From an uncultured Bacilli bacterium (GTDB taxonomy: Bacteria > Bacillota_I > Bacilli_A > RF39 > UBA660), in assembly GCA_944332205.1 (NCBI GenBank), contig CALVJN010000017.1, forward strand, positions 1 to 33,540: a stretch of 33,540 nucleotides of DNA, written 5' to 3'. The notes below the pieces were generated by a model. The model searched no databases. It saw only the letters and a list, made by a program, of their open reading frames with translations, and was not told the DNA's origin. Shown here in pieces: positions 20,468-32,511 of the stretch. Position 1 is the stretch's first letter, and every line of letters begins with the position of its first letter. The position numbers were made by a program, and so were the translations under genes.

Positions 20468-21880
20468 ATGGGTAGGAAAGTAAAAAAAATTTTGATTGGT
20501 TTATTTGTTATTATTGGTGTTATAGCAATATCAGTTGGTGTTGTTTTAATGTTACAACAAAGCGATAGAGAGATTTTTACTGAATCATTTAAGAAAAATT
20601 TTAATAGTATAAAAAATATTCAAAAAGATAATGATTTTGTTTTGGGTAGTATATCAGATTTAAAAGAAGATTTAAAAGTTAAGTTAAGTACTGATACTTC
20701 TATTGAATCATTATTAGATACAGCAAGTATTAAGGGAGATTTTTATTTAGATAGTTATGCTCAAAAATTATATACAACTTTCGATGTAGAATCAAATCTT
20801 GAAAAATATTCAATTGAAGCAGTTTTAAAAGATTCTAAACTTTATCATATGATTAAAGATGTGTATTCTAAATATTATTATACAGAAGTTGACTTATTTA
20901 GCGATACTAATAATGATGAGGTAAACATTGATTTTACAGTTGTTTTTGACTATCTTGAAGAAGCAATTATTGATTGTGTTACTGATGATAATTTAACAGT
21001 AGAAGATAAAAAGATTACTTTAGGTGATGAAACTGTTAATACTAAGAAATATACAGTTGATTTTACTCAAAAAGATGTAGTTAACATTTTAAAATCAATT
21101 GCTAGTAAGTTAAAAAATAATAAGGAATTGTATGACTATTTGTCTACATTGTTTACAACTTCAACAAATGGTGAAAGTTTAGATGAATATATTTCTATGC
21201 TAGATGATATGTTAAAAGATTCTGATGATACTGATACTTTTATATCATATGTTATGTATCTAGATGGTGAAGATGTAGTTTCAAATGAAGTAGCTATTAA
21301 CATTAAATCAGAAGAAAACACTGTTACTTTACGTTTTACTATAAATTCTTATGAAAATAAATCTGGTTACAATAATTTTGAGATTTATTTATCTGCAATG
21401 GGTATTAAAGTGTTTAGTTTTGAATTACTAGGAACTAGTGATACAAAGTATGATATTTCAATGAATATATTGAATTCACTTAGTATTGAAGGAACTCTAG
21501 AATCTTCTAGTTCAAAGTTTAATCTTGTGCTTGAAGGTAATATGCCTGAATCTGCGCTAGATGATTCATCCTCTTCAGCTGAATTAAAAGAATTTTTAAG
21601 CTTAGATTTATTAGTAGAAGAAGTTACTAAAAATGAAGAATATAACATAAACTTAATTCTTAAATTATCTGGCGATGAAGATATTCAGTTTAGTTCAACA
21701 AATAAGCTTTTAATTGGTGAAGAAGTTCCAGATATTGATGTTTCTGATAGTGCTGATATGGTAGAAATGACAGATGCTGAAATTGAAGCATTTAATAAGT
21801 TGTTTGGTAATTTCATTGATAATGGTTTAACAGATTTAGAAGATAGTATGGGAGGTATTGGAAAAGACTTATTATTTTAA
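20468..21880 (+). CDS. Membrane-anchored extracellular protein, unknown function
   Basis: This 470-residue protein has a basic N-terminus (MGRKVKK) and one uncleaved-type membrane segment at about residues 8-28, with no lipobox. The large acidic remainder should lie outside the cell. It consists of many short strands with Ser/Thr/Asp-rich turns and repeated patterns of the form hydrophobic-strand, acidic turn, KLY or KYD. This resembles the beta-rich architecture of LolA-like or similar surface proteins, but I do not recognise a family. AGAGGAG precedes the ATG. The 3' end forms part of a terminator. In related Bacilli rplQ is followed directly by ecfA1, so this gene is an insertion there. 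Confidence 0.7.
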   Translation: MGRKVKKILIGLFVIIGVIAISVGVVLMLQQSDREIFTESFKKNFNSIKNIQKDNDFVLGSISDLKEDLKVKLSTDTSIESLLDTASIKGDFYLDSYAQKLYTTFDVESNLEKYSIEAVLKDSKLYHMIKDVYSKYYYTEVDLFSDTNNDEVNIDFTVVFDYLEEAIIDCVTDDNLTVEDKKITLGDETVNTKKYTVDFTQKDVVNILKSIASKLKNNKELYDYLSTLFTTSTNGESLDEYISMLDDMLKDSDDTDTFISYVMYLDGEDVVSNEVAINIKSEENTVTLRFTINSYENKSGYNNFEIYLSAMGIKVFSFELLGTSDTKYDISMNILNSLSIEGTLESSSSKFNLVLEGNMPESALDDSSSSAELKEFLSLDLLVEEVTKNEEYNINLILKLSGDEDIQFSSTNKLLIGEEVPDIDVSDSADMVEMTDAEIEAFNKLFGNFIDNGLTDLEDSMGGIGKDLLF

Positions 21881-21925: not shown

Positions 21926-22681
21926 ATGAAAGCATTAATAACTGGTGGCTCTTCTGGAATAGGCTATAGCATGGCTAAATATTTAAGTAGTCTTGGTTAT
22001 GATTTGATTTTGGTATCACGCGATAAAGAAAAATTACAAAAAATCCAGAAAGAATTACCAACAGAAGTAAAAATTATTGTTGCAGATTTAACAAGCGAAG
22101 CTAAATTGAAAGAACTTTATGTTTTATGTAAAAATGATAATATTGATATACTTATAAATAATGCTGGTTTTGGCTTATTCGGTATCTTTTCTGACACTGA
22201 TTTAAGTAAAGAATTAGAAATGATAGATGTTAATATTAAGGCTACTCATATATTAACTAAATTGTTTTTAAAGGATATGAAAAAAAGAAATAATGGGTAT
22301 ATTCTTAATGTTTCTAGTGCTGCTAGTTTTCAAGCTGGTCCTTTAATGGCAACTTATTATGCTACTAAATCATATGTAACTAAATTAAGTCTTGCTATTT
22401 ATGAGGAATTAAGAAAAGAGAAATCTAATGTTCATATTTCTTGTTTGTGCCCTGGGCCTGTTAAAACTAATTTTAATAATGTAGCCAACGTTCAATTTGC
22501 TATGAGATCACTTAATAGTGATGATGTAGCAAAATATGCTATAGAAAAAATGTTTAAAAATAAGTTAATTATTATTCCTGGTTTAAAAATGAAATTAGCT
22601 ATATTTTTTAATAGATTTATTTCTTTAAAATTTGCATTAAAAATAGTTTATAGGTTTCAGAAAAAGAAAGAAAAAAAATAA
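21926..22681 (+). CDS. Short-chain dehydrogenase/reductase
   Basis: This 251-residue classical SDR uses NAD(P)H to reduce or oxidise an unknown substrate. The Rossmann motif TGGSSGIG is at residues 6-13, NNAG at 78-81, and the catalytic set is Ser131, Tyr144 and Lys148 (YYATK). The CPGPVKTNF block is also typical. The C-terminal 40 residues are hydrophobic and basic (IIIPGLKMKLAIFFNRFISL), as in membrane-associated SDRs of the DltE type that act on lipids. That substrate is an inference. GGAG precedes the ATG. It has its own promoter and terminator. Confidence 0.9.
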   Translation: MKALITGGSSGIGYSMAKYLSSLGYDLILVSRDKEKLQKIQKELPTEVKIIVADLTSEAKLKELYVLCKNDNIDILINNAGFGLFGIFSDTDLSKELEMIDVNIKATHILTKLFLKDMKKRNNGYILNVSSAASFQAGPLMATYYATKSYVTKLSLAIYEELRKEKSNVHISCLCPGPVKTNFNNVANVQFAMRSLNSDDVAKYAIEKMFKNKLIIIPGLKMKLAIFFNRFISLKFALKIVYRFQKKKEKK

Positions 22682-22736: not shown

Positions 22737-23549
22737 ATGAATAATTTATTAGTTTTGGATAATTTATCAGTTGGTTATAAGGATTTAACAATTTATAAAG
22801 ATTTGTCTTTTAATATTGCTGAAAATACAATTACTTCTATTTTATGTCCAAATAACAGTGGCAAAAGCACATTAATTAAAACATTAAGCGGAATTAATTG
22901 TGGATTATGTGGTAGCATAGTGCTAAATAATGTAAAATTAACTAAAAGAAGTTTTAAAAAATATATTCGTGATGTTGGTGTTGTTTTAGAAGATATAGAC
23001 CGTCAGTTTATTACAAATAATGTCAAAGATGAAATAATATTTCCACTTGTTAATTTAGGTTATAACAAAAGCGTTATTGATAAACATATTGAAGATATTA
23101 CCAAGATTTGTGAACTTGATAATATATTAAATAAAAAAATAGATAGTCTTTCTAATTATGATAAAATTAAAGTTTTAATTGCTAGTAGTATTATTCATTT
23201 TCCTAAAATATTGTTATTAGATGATCCTTTTAGATTTTTAAATCTTAAAGAACAAAAAAAAATTTTGAATATTTTAAATAATATAAAAAACAATTGTAAT
23301 ATTTCTATAATTTTTACAACTTCGCAGTTTTCTTCAATAATTGATTTAGACAACATTATTGTTTTAGGTAATGGAAAAATAATTATGCAGGGAAATTATA
23401 AAGATATTATAAAGAAAGATAACGAATTAAGTAAATTAGGCATTGAGATACCTATTATGATAGATTTATCTTTAAAATTACAATTTTATAGTTTGCTAGA
23501 TGACATATGTTATGATGTTGGGGGGATTGTTGATAAATTATGGAAATAA
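22737..23549 (+). CDS. Degenerate ECF-transporter ATPase (EcfA1-like)
   Basis: This 270-residue protein has the EcfA/CbiO layout and sits at the ecfA1 place before truA-rplM-rpsI. In ECF transporters this ATPase powers vitamin uptake. Here the motifs are eroded. Walker A is CPNNSGKST (residues 37-45; two Gly lost, Lys43 and Ser44 kept). The Q-loop Gln is Glu85. The signature LSGGQ is LSNYD (138-142). Walker B keeps Asp162, but the catalytic Glu is Asp163. The H-loop His is Ser196. It may still bind nucleotide; rapid hydrolysis is doubtful. The reading frame is intact and overlaps the next gene by ten bases. Confidence 0.8.
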   Translation: MNNLLVLDNLSVGYKDLTIYKDLSFNIAENTITSILCPNNSGKSTLIKTLSGINCGLCGSIVLNNVKLTKRSFKKYIRDVGVVLEDIDRQFITNNVKDEIIFPLVNLGYNKSVIDKHIEDITKICELDNILNKKIDSLSNYDKIKVLIASSIIHFPKILLLDDPFRFLNLKEQKKILNILNNIKNNCNISIIFTTSQFSSIIDLDNIIVLGNGKIIMQGNYKDIIKKDNELSKLGIEIPIMIDLSLKLQFYSLLDDICYDVGGIVDKLWK

Positions 23550-24229
23550 TTTTAAGAAATAATTTTAATTATAGAAAAAAAATTGATGTTGAAGAAGGTA
23601 CTATTATATCTTTACAAGTTACTAATTTTAAGGCTATTATTAGTAATTTGATTGATGATTATAGATTCGTTAATATTGACAATAGTCAAGTGTATTTTTT
23701 AGGTGAAAATGTATATGAGGAAATAAATTTATATAGCAATACTTATAATTTAAATTTAATTAAAGATATTTTTGATATTTTTGGATTAAATGATAGCTTT
23801 TTTGATAATAAGATTGAAGATTTATCATATACTGAAAGAGTATATTTAAATATAATTAGAAATTTATCTTTAGGTAATAAAAAAATTTTATTTTATGATG
23901 TTTATAATTATTTAGATTATGCTAATCAAAAAAAGATAAAGAATTTACTTTTATATTTAAAAGAAAAAAAATATACTATTTTTATAACAAGCAAAGATGT
24001 AAATGTTTTATATAAACTTGCTGATTATTCAATTTTATGGAATAAAAATAATTTTGATTATGGCAAGACAGATGATTTATATACAAATGTTGAAAAAATT
24101 TTAAAATTTAATTTAGAAGTACCAGTTCTATCATTAATTACTTATAAAGCTCTTAAAAACAAAAATGTAAAATTATTTTATAGTAAAGATGTAAGAGATG
24201 TTATAAAGGATATTTATAAACATGTATAG
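23540..24229 (+). CDS. Pseudo-ATPase at the EcfA2 position
   Basis: This 229-residue protein can be aligned to an ABC ATPase only by its skeleton. The Walker A site reads LQVTNFKAI (all Gly lost, Lys31 left). The signature keeps LSYTERV in place of LSGGQxxRV. The Walker B site reads ILFYDVYNYLD, with Asp kept and catalytic Glu replaced by Val. The switch reads FITSKD with Ser in place of His. No ATP turnover is expected. The intact frame and overlaps of 10 and 8 bases with both neighbours suggest it is still expressed, perhaps as a structural partner of the first ATPase. Confidence 0.7.
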   Translation: MEIILRNNFNYRKKIDVEEGTIISLQVTNFKAIISNLIDDYRFVNIDNSQVYFLGENVYEEINLYSNTYNLNLIKDIFDIFGLNDSFFDNKIEDLSYTERVYLNIIRNLSLGNKKILFYDVYNYLDYANQKKIKNLLLYLKEKKYTIFITSKDVNVLYKLADYSILWNKNNFDYGKTDDLYTNVEKILKFNLEVPVLSLITYKALKNKNVKLFYSKDVRDVIKDIYKHV

Positions 24230-24809
24230 TGTTAATTGGAAAATTAGAGCTTTAATAGCATCAATACTTATTGTAATAACTTCTTTAATAAATAATTATT
24301 ATTTGTTTTGGCTATTATTATTTTATTTACTATTAATTTCAATTGTTGATAGGAATATTAAATCTTTGCTTTTAAATTTTTTAATAGTTTTAATCCTTTT
24401 ATTTTGTTTTTATACTTCCAAGATAAGATTATTACTTAAAATAATTTGTATTATAAATATTTTAGTTTTATTCTTTTGCTCTTTTACTAAAAATGAAAGA
24501 AACTTTATTAAATTTAAAATATTGTATAAATATAGAAAAAGTTCTCGAAAAAAATTATTTTATAAATATAATAGTGATAGAGTAATTTCTTTTAATAAAG
24601 AAAAAGCATTAAAATTATATAATGAAAATGCTAATGTGGATAACAAGATAAAAAGAGATATGAATTTTTTATATCTTTGTGGCAGGATTAGATTTTATGG
24701 TTATAGTAATAAACTTGGTAATTATATGAACAGAAAAGTTGGAATATATGATTTTATTTTTTTAATAGTATTTATATTTTTTATTATTCTTTGTATTTAT
24801 TTTTGGTAG
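24222..24809 (+). CDS. Membrane protein at the EcfT position
   Basis: This 195-residue protein has hydrophobic segments at about residues 8-30, 32-45, 48-63 and 68-87. A basic soluble stretch with many Lys/Arg/Tyr follows (about 90-170), and then a C-terminal membrane segment (about 173-194). EcfT proteins in this place usually have about 265 residues and two Ala-Arg-Gly type coupling motifs, and I see neither. It is probably a reduced or diverged EcfT partner of the two altered ATPases; sequence similarity alone does not prove it. It starts inside the preceding gene by 8 bases and ends just before truA. Confidence 0.55.
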   Translation: MYSVNWKIRALIASILIVITSLINNYYLFWLLLFYLLLISIVDRNIKSLLLNFLIVLILLFCFYTSKIRLLLKIICIINILVLFFCSFTKNERNFIKFKILYKYRKSSRKKLFYKYNSDRVISFNKEKALKLYNENANVDNKIKRDMNFLYLCGRIRFYGYSNKLGNYMNRKVGIYDFIFLIVFIFFIILCIYFW

Positions 24810-24818
24810 GTGAAGTTT

Positions 24819-29136: not shown

Positions 29137-30417
29137 TTATTTTTCCTCCTTAATTTTTTTTAAATATTCCTTATCTACATAAAATTCACATGATATTATT
29201 GTTCCTGGAAATTTGTTATTTAAAAGTTTTACATACTTTTCATCGGGTCTTTTATTTAAATCATTGGTTTTGTTAAATGCGATTACTTTGGTTCCTTTTC
29301 TTTCTTTACTATCTTTTAAAGTATATGTTCCATCAAATAAAATATGTGTATGTCCAGATAAAATAATCATCTTAGGAATTTCATTGTTTATAGTTTTTCC
29401 TAATTCTGTAAAGCTTTCAATAAATTTTATTGTTCCAGTACCTCTATCATTGTCATCTGTTTTTTTTCTACTTATCATCCATTGTAATGCAAAGACTGTC
29501 CATGAACTTTCTTCGTTCCAACCAAAATCAAATAATTTTTCATGATATTTTGTTTGATTTTCTAGTTTCTTTTTTGTTTTATCACTGATAGTATTATATT
29601 TTAAACTTTCATATATAGTATCTCCTAAACTAATAAAAGTTAATTTCCCTTTAGGTACTTTTTCACTTTTTACATTCTTGCTAAAATGACCACTAACATA
29701 CCAAATACCGTTTTCTCCACAATGTTGATTGGCATTATCAATTATTTCACCAACTAATTTATTGAAATGGTTTACACCTTCATCGTTTAAGACAAACCCA
29801 CTAGTCTTTAGACAGTTATTATAATACTCGATAACTTTATTTGTCATTAAGTTTGTATCTTTTTCATACGCAAAAGGATCTAATCTTCTTACATCCGGGC
29901 TCTCAACCTTACTTATTCCTAAATGTTTAATTAAACCGCTATTTAAAAATATTTCGATGGCTGATTCGGATTTGGGATAATTTCCTGCTAGGCCTATTTT
30001 TAAACCAATCTTTTTTCTGAGTTCTAATCCATTTAAAACGATAATATCCGTAACTAATGAAGCATCTAATCCTAGCATCTCACAATTTGAATAATCAAAA
30101 TATATTTTTTTGATTTTCCAATTAAATATGGCAGAATTAATTTGTTTTAAAATGTTTATAGTTTCATTTGCATTTTCTATAAAACAAAATGCCTTTGGAA
30201 TAGAAATTATAACTTTATCTTTTATTTTTACAGGTTTTGCATAAAATTTATTTGTATTTAATATATTTAAAACTTTATTTTGAATTTTCTTTTTCTTTTT
30301 TTTAGTTGGTGCCATTATATTACGAAATGGATTATATGTTTTATTCTTTCTTTTTATTTTATTTCTTTCTATTTTTTTGCATCGATTTTTTTCAAAATCA
30401 ATTTTATTTCTGCCCAA
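29137..30417 (-). CDS. STAS-like plus GHKL (HSP90-type) ATPase protein
   Basis: This 426-residue protein has a very basic N-terminal tail (about 1-56, with a run of six Lys). A STAS-like domain follows (about 60-170; IKKIYFDYSNCEMLGLDASL), then a GHKL ATPase domain (about 195-415). The N-box reads EIIDNANQH (Glu224, Asn228, His232), the G1-like site SLGD (Asp266) and the glycine-rich lid DRGTGT (about 325-330). The last strand is FPGTIISCEF. The start is uncertain: TTG at 30417 follows GAGGTGGTGATT, while an in-frame GTG at 30429 overlaps that site. It is the first gene of a tight three-gene operon and is probably the ATP-dependent sensor or switch. Confidence 0.8.
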   Translation of the reverse strand: MGRNKIDFEKNRCKKIERNKIKRKNKTYNPFRNIMAPTKKKKKKIQNKVLNILNTNKFYAKPVKIKDKVIISIPKAFCFIENANETINILKQINSAIFNWKIKKIYFDYSNCEMLGLDASLVTDIIVLNGLELRKKIGLKIGLAGNYPKSESAIEIFLNSGLIKHLGISKVESPDVRRLDPFAYEKDTNLMTNKVIEYYNNCLKTSGFVLNDEGVNHFNKLVGEIIDNANQHCGENGIWYVSGHFSKNVKSEKVPKGKLTFISLGDTIYESLKYNTISDKTKKKLENQTKYHEKLFDFGWNEESSWTVFALQWMISRKKTDDNDRGTGTIKFIESFTELGKTINNEIPKMIILSGHTHILFDGTYTLKDSKERKGTKVIAFNKTNDLNKRPDEKYVKLLNNKFPGTIISCEFYVDKEYLKKIKEEK

Positions 30418-30443
30418 AGGAATCACCACCTCTCATTTAAGAT

Positions 30444-30537: not shown

Positions 30538-32511
30538 ATGGCATTTAAATCATATAGTTGGTCTATAGGGACTACTAGTTTTAGAACGAGTCAATTAAAT
30601 TATAAAATAGAAAGACAATTACAATTATTAAAAGAATTTTGGAATAATAATCCTAATGCAGAATGGAATAATGACACACAAGAAAAATATTATAATTATT
30701 TAAAAGAAAATAACTTTTTGGATGGAGAAGCAAAAATTCCAGATAAAGATGCAAGAGAAAAAACATCTGGTTTAGCTGATATAGGCGTTTTAACTAGAGA
30801 TAGAAAATTAACTGAAGTTGGATCTAATATTGAACGATTATTATATAAGCCAATGAATAAAAATAATATATTTATGATTTCTGAAGATAGTTATAAATAT
30901 TTATTGCAATTTTTAAAATTACAAATTAATAATGATGATATTAAAATAAAACCATTTATAGCACTTATTTATATGATTGAAAATTTAGATTACTTATCTT
31001 ATGATGAATTTACTTATTTACTTCCACTTTGCAAAAATAAATATGATGTCACCAAAATGGTTCAAACAATAAAAAATGCTGAAAGATCTGGAGTTTCTAT
31101 TGATGAAATTATTACAACAAAAATATTTGAAATGAACAATTATGTACAAGCTTTATATTATTTTAGTAAAGAATATCCTGTAACAGAGGAAACATTTGAA
31201 AAAATAGGATTAAATAGAAAAAGCAAAACATACGACAGACCTTATAATGCTATTTATCATACTTTAGTTGATTTAGTATTTCATTTAAAGCATGAAAGTT
31301 TTGATGATAGACTTCTAAAATATAAAGAATTATTTGATGAATGTAAAAAAATATCAGGAAATGCTAGAATGTTATGGCAAGATTATTTATTCATGGGATA
31401 TAGGATAAATAAAATTGATGAAGAATTTGATAAGAGGTTTAAAGAACTTGATATTAGTTTGACTAAAAATATAATTGATTTTAAAAAGGAATTTTTTATT
31501 AAATTACATTTATTTAAATGGAAAGTAAATTTGAAAGATTTTTTTGATTTAAATAAACGATATTTTTCATTAACGGACATTATAAAATTTGAGGATGAGA
31601 AGATAGAATTAGATATATTGCCAAAATACTATTTTAAAAATATAATTGATGATTTGCTTAATGAAAAGTTGTTAGAAGATAATGATTATTTAAATAAATT
31701 TTATTCAGATATCCCAATAGAAAATATTTCACCATACTATAATATTAATATAGATGATGTAATTAATAATATTAATGAGGAATTAGGAACAAATTTAACA
31801 GTTAATAACATTAATACATATATTAAGGATGAAAAATTAAAGAGCTTTAATGAGTTAATAGATAATAAATTTAAAACAACTGATTTAATTAGAATATTAG
31901 AGCAAATAAAAAATAGAAATGATGAAGAACTAAATTCATATATTACAGATGATGCAAATATACCAACAATTTTTGAGTACATACTTGGAATAGCTTGGTA
32001 TAGAATTAGTGGAAAAAAAGGAAACATTTTAGACTATATGAATTTAAGTTTAGATGCCAACTTCTTGCCAAAGACACATGCTGGTGGCGGAATGGCAGAC
32101 ATTGTATATAAGTATGATAAGGATACATACCCCAAACATGATTTATTAATTGAAGCAACGATATCTGGCTCTACTGGTCAAAGAGTTATGGAAATGGAAC
32201 CTGTTTCTAGACATCTTGGTGAAAATATAAAACTTACTGATAATTTAAATGATTATGCTTTATTTATTGCACCTAATTTGGAAGAAAGGATAATCTTAGA
32301 TTTTAGAAATATGAAAACAAGATTTTATCCAAAAGGAAATGGCGAATTTATTGAAGGCTTAAAAATTATACCAATTGATATTGATATACTGAAAAAGATA
32401 CTTGAAAAAAATATGGATTATAATGAAATATATAAATGGTTTGATAAGGCATTTAAATCAAACGTCCCTGATCCTATTTGGTATAGAGAAGAAATTTTTG
32501 AAAATATATAA
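30538..32511 (+). CDS. AlwI-family type II restriction endonuclease
   Basis: This 657-residue protein matches the AlwI family of type IIS enzymes in layout. The N-terminus (SYSWSIGTTSFRT, then QLQLLKEFW) and a long helical recognition part are followed by the C-terminal nuclease region with FLPKTHAGGGMADIVYKY and LLIEATIS. Asp521 and Glu539-x-Thr541 are candidate residues of a PD-(D/E)XK-type site (inference). AlwI itself reads GGATC, and the enzyme here need not have the same target. GGAGG precedes the ATG. A terminator follows, then the methyltransferase gene, so both could be expressed separately. Confidence 0.82.
   Translation: MAFKSYSWSIGTTSFRTSQLNYKIERQLQLLKEFWNNNPNAEWNNDTQEKYYNYLKENNFLDGEAKIPDKDAREKTSGLADIGVLTRDRKLTEVGSNIERLLYKPMNKNNIFMISEDSYKYLLQFLKLQINNDDIKIKPFIALIYMIENLDYLSYDEFTYLLPLCKNKYDVTKMVQTIKNAERSGVSIDEIITTKIFEMNNYVQALYYFSKEYPVTEETFEKIGLNRKSKTYDRPYNAIYHTLVDLVFHLKHESFDDRLLKYKELFDECKKISGNARMLWQDYLFMGYRINKIDEEFDKRFKELDISLTKNIIDFKKEFFIKLHLFKWKVNLKDFFDLNKRYFSLTDIIKFEDEKIELDILPKYYFKNIIDDLLNEKLLEDNDYLNKFYSDIPIENISPYYNINIDDVINNINEELGTNLTVNNINTYIKDEKLKSFNELIDNKFKTTDLIRILEQIKNRNDEELNSYITDDANIPTIFEYILGIAWYRISGKKGNILDYMNLSLDANFLPKTHAGGGMADIVYKYDKDTYPKHDLLIEATISGSTGQRVMEMEPVSRHLGENIKLTDNLNDYALFIAPNLEERIILDFRNMKTRFYPKGNGEFIEGLKIIPIDIDILKKILEKNMDYNEIYKWFDKAFKSNVPDPIWYREEIFENI

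Follow-up and report, generated by a model that had tools for sequence, protein, structure and literature searches.

ECF modules, whose two ATPases normally power the import of vitamins, count as transport machines and are pursued as antibiotic targets. In an ABC dimer, each nucleotide site is built from Walker A and Walker B of one subunit and the signature of the other, and in the degenerate-site ABC heterodimers of the TM287/288, TAP and CFTR type the site that is kept is catalytic and transmembrane domains are present. In Bacilli, the usual place of ecfA1-ecfA2-ecfT is between the ribosomal operon and truA, and the same place is found in relatives within the class. In L. delbrueckii, replacing the catalytic Glu of just one EcfA, whichever of the two, by Gln is enough to stop both ATP hydrolysis and transport (PMC10368641). 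The coupling helices CH2 and CH3 of EcfT are anchored via X-Arg-X motifs in EcfA and EcfA', respectively (PMC10368641), and EcfA dimers on their own, with no membrane subunit present, can close on AMP-PNP (PMC4820897; PMC10368641).

Gene order and motifs at the locus

The window, that is the whole stretch of 33,540 nucleotides analysed here, belongs to a genome of 1.25 Mb in 34 contigs that is 95% complete. Three frames, overlapping by 10 bp (A1/A2) and 8 bp (A2/T), are located downstream of an SDR gene (21926-22681); further upstream still are rpoA and rplQ. The truA gene starts at 24810, abutting the end of ecfT, and is followed by rplM and rpsI. The features are as follows:

22737..23549, + strand: ecfA1 (A1), intact frame of 270 aa, EcfA1-derived ATP-binding subunit
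22845..22871, + strand: Walker A of A1 (CPNNSGKST, residues 37-45), GKST kept, first Gly replaced by Cys
22989..22991, + strand: Q-loop position of A1 (E85; LEDI), Gln replaced by Glu, as in all congeners
23148..23162, + strand: signature position of A1, LSNYD versus LSGGQ by motif comparison
23220..23225, + strand: end of Walker B of A1 (D162-D163), Mg-binding Asp kept, catalytic Glu replaced by Asp (DD for DE)
23322..23324, + strand: H-loop His of A1 replaced by Ser (S196; TTS for TH) by motif comparison
23418..23546, + strand: C-terminal domain of A1 (residues 228-270), conserved strongly across the family
23540..24229, + strand: ecfA2 (A2), intact frame of 229 aa, EcfA2-derived subunit, P-loop deleted
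23822..23836, + strand: signature region of A2 (LSYTE), conserved, LSxTEK in most congeners
24095..24226, + strand: C-terminal domain of A2, ending DVRDVIKDIYKHV, nearly invariant in the genus
24222..24809, + strand: shortened ecfT (T), intact frame of 195 aa
24690..24692, + strand: Arg157 of T, invariant in 24 aligned EcfT, at the position of the C-terminal X-Arg-X anchor

An earlier note on this DNA had described an ECF module in its ancestral synteny, A1-A2-T before truA-rplM-rpsI, with overlapping starts, a shortened EcfT-like protein and two ATPases that are open frames without key residues. This description agrees with the gene order, overlaps and protein lengths found here, and the state of the ATPases is common to all ten congeneric loci, which is more than chance would give.

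The best NCBIfam match of A1 is ECF_ATPase_1 (TIGR04520, E 1e-43, far below its cut-off), and EcfA1 of L. delbrueckii is among its best PDB sequence matches. A2 is matched weakly by the NCBIfam ECF ATPases (best E 2e-6) and by nothing in a Pfam search, but aligns with EcfA2. The AF2 models have a pLDDT of 94 for A1 and 95 for A2 and the closest folds are EcfA chains in both cases (for A1, 6zg3_F with TM 0.89), a likeness that is partly built in, as the AF2 alignments took in intact homologues. By homology and fold (for A2 by weak profile match, synteny and fold) the locus thus has two EcfA subunits.

Among congeners, the first Gly of the A1 Walker A is Cys or Ser with GK[ST][ST] retained in all, and the H-loop reads TTS or ITS. 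In A2 of the window the P-loop is absent and LSYTE is found at the signature, YDV for DE and TSKD for TH; the Q-loop Gln is missing from both subunits. A2 ends in ~20 residues (KLFYSKDVRDIIKDIYKHV) that hardly differ between species in which the protein is otherwise ~50% identical. The claim that all five motifs of A1 are altered stands for the first Gly of Walker A, the Q-loop, the signature, the Glu and the His, but Lys, Ser and Thr of Walker A and the Walker B Asp are intact. Likewise A2 has indeed lost its P-loop, catalytic Glu and H-loop His, but its signature region is conserved in relatives. Therefore, the erosion is selective and not uniform. With Glu and His gone from both subunits and the P-loop from A2, the locus is not predicted to form a catalytically competent ATPase site.

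T has no match in Pfam and NCBIfam profile searches and falls below Pfam CbiQ detection; its assignment as EcfT is made by alignment, position and the invariant coupling Arg. Its 195 aa compare with 241-286 aa in canonical relatives; the hydrophobic segments are present and the coupling-helix region is reduced. The other Arg anchor (SRG) is lost, leaving one of two X-Arg-X motifs, and the kept Arg, at the second-anchor position, would contact A2. An EcfT with coupling helices and two such anchors is hence not recognisable in the window.

Further genes of the window were noted in passing. The gene at 20468-21880, for a 470-aa protein that has a single hydrophobic segment at its N-terminus and matches nothing in Pfam, lies 5' of the SDR gene across the genus, but is evolving fast. 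The SDR gene itself (PF00106) adjoins A1 in several intact loci and in 47 of the 58 loci that were initially taken to be EcfT-less, a set including two (L212, L227) later found to have an ORF at the EcfT position. An SDR oxidoreductase as functional partner of A1-A2 is a possible lead and no more. At 30538-32511, a 657-aa ORF has by eye the look of a restriction endonuclease and is flanked by a STAS/ATPase-like ORF on the opposite strand (29137-30429).

Selection on the pair and loss of EcfT in relatives

The locus is present in 10 of 11 genomes of the same genus. In the eleventh (G002) truA is missing as well, and instead of a true loss there is probably an assembly gap. All ten congeneric loci (45-82% identity) have three open frames and the same defects in A1 and A2. 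As these are independent assemblies, assembly error as the source of the motif loss, which had been considered, is excluded for the genus. Between the window and its nearest congener, dN/dS (NG86) is 0.22 for A1, 0.24 for A2 and 0.24 for T, compared with 0.11 for truA and 0.04 for SDR. Therefore A1, A2 and T are under purifying selection, which is weaker than on the neighbouring genes. In 12 pairs of related species, all scored EcfT-less, A1 and A2 have dN/dS values of 0.05-0.38, usually lower in the C-terminal 39 residues with the overlap excluded. Simple decay, of which frameshifts in relatives would have been a sign, does not fit: no frameshifts were found, the frames are open, dN/dS across relatives is well below 1 (about 0.05-0.4), 79 of 80 loci retain the 10-bp overlap of A1 and A2, and conservation of the C-terminal domains is strong. 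One apparently truncated A1 (L237) is due to a contig edge.

The comparison was extended to the family, the data being MAGs. Of 24 other genera, each represented by one genome, nine have a Pfam-recognised EcfT, three a diverged EcfT, eleven the order A1-A2-truA without EcfT, and one (G028) is without the pair. A collection scan with the A2 alignment of the genus yielded 80 loci from named records, all from uncultured gut Bacilli, one of them Candidatus Faecimonas (GTDB order RF39). Between A2 and truA, 56 of the 80 have no EcfT-like ORF; in 23 an ORF occupies the EcfT position, and one locus is truncated. The 23 include, as very diverged cases, ~190-aa hydrophobic ORFs that are beyond the EcfT profile (L212:5536-6114 and L227:5551-6120). 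The lack of a membrane subunit, as expected of a soluble ABC protein, is seen in 56 of the 80 loci and in 11 of the other genera, two samples that overlap; the window itself keeps a short EcfT. A profile of the short EcfT found no EcfT-like gene elsewhere in 12 family genomes without EcfT at the locus. The idea that EcfT-less loci carry a substitute membrane subunit downstream of truA was also dismissed, as the extra ORFs there are varied and by eye none is EcfT-like. In most EcfT-less loci A2 and truA are separated by a short gap and do not overlap. Many EcfT-less genomes (L171, L179, L182, L184 and others) carry a two-gene insertion between truA and rplM, with products of about 250-390 aa and 100-145 aa, the second Ala/Thr rich.

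In a truA+L13+S9 tree of 101 loci, the intact EcfT-bearing loci are basal, some of those with intact motors having a PF07456 S-component, and the EcfT-less loci are derived. The presence of EcfT changed at least five times on this tree, a count from quick trees that is a guide only, as several forks have low support, long branches meet and the diverged ORFs of L212 and L227 could raise the number. One locus (L089) is EcfT-less inside an otherwise EcfT-bearing clade; its A1 keeps GPNGCGKST and its A2 has lost the P-loop, a pattern which suggests that one-sided erosion may have evolved repeatedly. A graded series leads from intact modules (G012, G026) through short EcfT and EcfT-less loci to remnants and complete loss (G028). 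In the remnant (G018), A1 has 149 aa and A2 183 aa; the P-loop lobe is gone and the C-terminal domain still fits the family pattern. The A1 P-loop is also gone in G030. Therefore, nucleotide binding and even the pair itself can be dispensed with in some genomes.

The earlier note had also suggested a search of the genome for S-components and for a second, intact EcfA/T set. Neither was found: profile searches of the window genome were negative for PF12822, PF07456, PF02632, PF07155 and PF09515, with unrecognised types possible, and for a CbiQ-type EcfT. The ten stand-alone ABC ATPases screened as a possible second EcfA pair are FtsE, LolD/MacB-like, DrrA-like, SufC and TagH-like proteins. The five S-component families have no match above cut-off in the genus. 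Within the family, just six genomes have a PF07456 match above cut-off, each of them also with an EcfT that Pfam recognises, and PF12822 passes its cut-off in only one of these six; the other three are nowhere above cut-off. In three genomes with an intact ECF module (G014, G025 and G012, with L099, L100 and L101, respectively) a PF07456 S-component-like gene adjoins an ApbE-like lipoprotein of the FMN transferase type and a small NusG-II-like protein, joined in two of the three by an FMN-binding-like protein. These neighbours were named by eye, and the arrangement resembles flavin or electron-transfer loci.

A probable residual nucleotide site and its possible role

Over 66 loci scored EcfT-less, the mean pairwise identity of A1 is 0.74 in Walker A and 0.58 in the C-terminal domain and that of A2 is 0.56 in the signature and 0.55 in the C-terminal domain, while Q-loop (0.25), helical domain (0.22) and signature (0.28) of A1 and Walker A and Q-loop of A2 (0.14 each) drift; the 66 include L212 and L227 with their diverged EcfT-like ORF and the cut-short L193, and the contrast should not change. 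As Walker A of A1 and the signature of A2 are conserved and the opposite halves are at background, the site between them appears to be kept and the other one abandoned. Judged by its residues, the pair thus conforms to the degenerate-site heterodimer pattern, one composite site retained and one lost. Conservation outside the retained motifs is modest. The A1 P-loop is kept in 64 of the 66 EcfT-less rows of the tree and the A1 catalytic Glu in only three of them; across loci this position holds D, N, S, E, Q, Y, G or C, and the H-loop His is lost. None of the 66 rows has an A2 P-loop of canonical length; seven EcfT-less A2 show GKS or GKT after a 3-residue deletion in the P-loop and were counted as degenerate, a shifted register being possible. 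To call the ATPases catalytically eroded was therefore correct as to the catalytic residues, which are gone, and incomplete in that one composite nucleotide site is selectively retained.

The explanation that we favour, with a probability of roughly 0.6, is that a former ECF motor has ceased to power transport and has been retained as a non-catalytic EcfA1-EcfA2 heterodimer in which one nucleotide site is left, here with the shortened EcfT as a membrane tether. Conversion to a non-transport device, one of the alternatives named earlier, is supported because most relatives have no EcfT and yet retain the two ATPases; the pair probably has a new job outside transport. From the published loss of activity upon Glu-to-Gln change, the X-Arg-X anchoring and the closure on AMP-PNP, we infer a dimer that binds nucleotide without hydrolysing it. 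Its origin would be the general ECF module EcfA1-EcfA2-EcfT of Bacilli, with the powering of transport lost in this clade. A1 and A2 would pair via their C-terminal domains, and one nucleotide would be bound between the A1 P-loop and the A2 signature without useful hydrolysis, the other site being dead. The bound nucleotide may stabilise or switch the dimer, which could act as a scaffold or as an adenylate-responsive regulator for a partner. For the window genus we would expect the pair to be held at the membrane by the shortened EcfT, which retains one of two Arg anchors, and for most other genera a soluble pair. More tentatively, and at somewhat less than even odds, membrane-free, non-hydrolysing EcfA1-EcfA2 pairs of several lineages may sense adenylate charge by the residual site and the C-terminal domains and regulate a client, forming a new class of ABC-derived complex.

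Other explanations share part of this evidence. The graded series down to the remnants and the loss in G028, the faster evolution of A1 and A2 than of truA and SDR, and the coincidence of S-component loss with erosion would also be expected of a slow relic, a module that became useless after S-component loss and is degrading gradually in reduced genomes, its place at the ribosomal operon and its overlapping frames aiding truA translation. We consider this unlikely, as frameshifted copies are lacking and dN/dS is well below 1 throughout, as translational coupling needs neither the conserved residues nor both C-terminal domains, and as A2 and truA mostly do not overlap in EcfT-less loci. A soluble, weakly active ATPase heterodimer, which performs mechanical work on a non-transport client as PhnK/PhnL do, appears quite improbable. 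ABC ATPase pairs without membrane domains exist, PhnK/PhnL remodelling C-P lyase for example (PMC9947105), and the present pair still has Walker A, the Walker B Asp and the signature region that faces them. However, both PhnK and PhnL are reported to require ATP binding and hydrolysis (PMC9947105), whereas here the one site is without a base, A1 has no fixed residue at the catalytic Glu position and the H-loop His has disappeared.

Slow turnover is conceivable in the window genus, in which A1 has Asp and not a neutral residue at the catalytic position. Nevertheless, a working but very slow or unusual ECF importer there, with the Asp as weak catalytic base and with unrecognised S-components, is highly improbable. 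All three subunits are kept, A1 retains Walker A and Asp-Asp, EcfT keeps one Arg anchor and diverged S-components can escape Pfam; but such an importer would have to work without an A2 P-loop, without a catalytic Glu in either subunit and with an EcfT that lacks one anchor and part of its coupling helices. In the ECF transporter that was studied, one E-to-Q exchange already leaves an inactive mutant (PMC10368641), the five S-component families are without a match above cut-off in the genus, and the same altered pair occurs in related genera without EcfT.

Comparison with known systems

If the favoured explanation, a non-catalytic heterodimer, is correct, this clade shows a motor that outlives transport, membrane subunit and catalysis while selection guards particular residues. 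It would provide a natural dissection of which parts of EcfA serve something besides ATP-powered transport, and the series from intact modules to remnants is material for studying the transition of an ABC ATPase to a pseudo-enzyme. There is a warning for annotation as well: automatic pipelines would call these proteins ECF transporter ATPases and infer vitamin uptake in gut bacteria that are probably without it. A limited search of the open-access literature returned no description of such EcfA pairs.

The group II ECF module (Type III ABC; L. delbrueckii ECF-FolT2, PDB 5JSZ, 8BMS) is like the present locus in ancestry, fold and gene order, in its place between ribosomal operon and truA and in heterodimeric ATPases with C-terminal domains. 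Unlike there, catalytic Glu, H-loop His, Q-loop Gln and the A2 P-loop are missing here, EcfT is short or absent, and no recognised S-component was found. With the heterodimers of the TM287/288, TAP and CFTR type the pair shares the asymmetric loss of one composite site and the retention of the other; here, however, even the kept site is without catalytic residues, and there is usually no membrane subunit. Finally, PhnK/PhnL of C-P lyase are likewise ABC subunits without a membrane channel, but are reported to need ATP hydrolysis (PMC9947105), whereas the pair described here appears to be non-hydrolytic.
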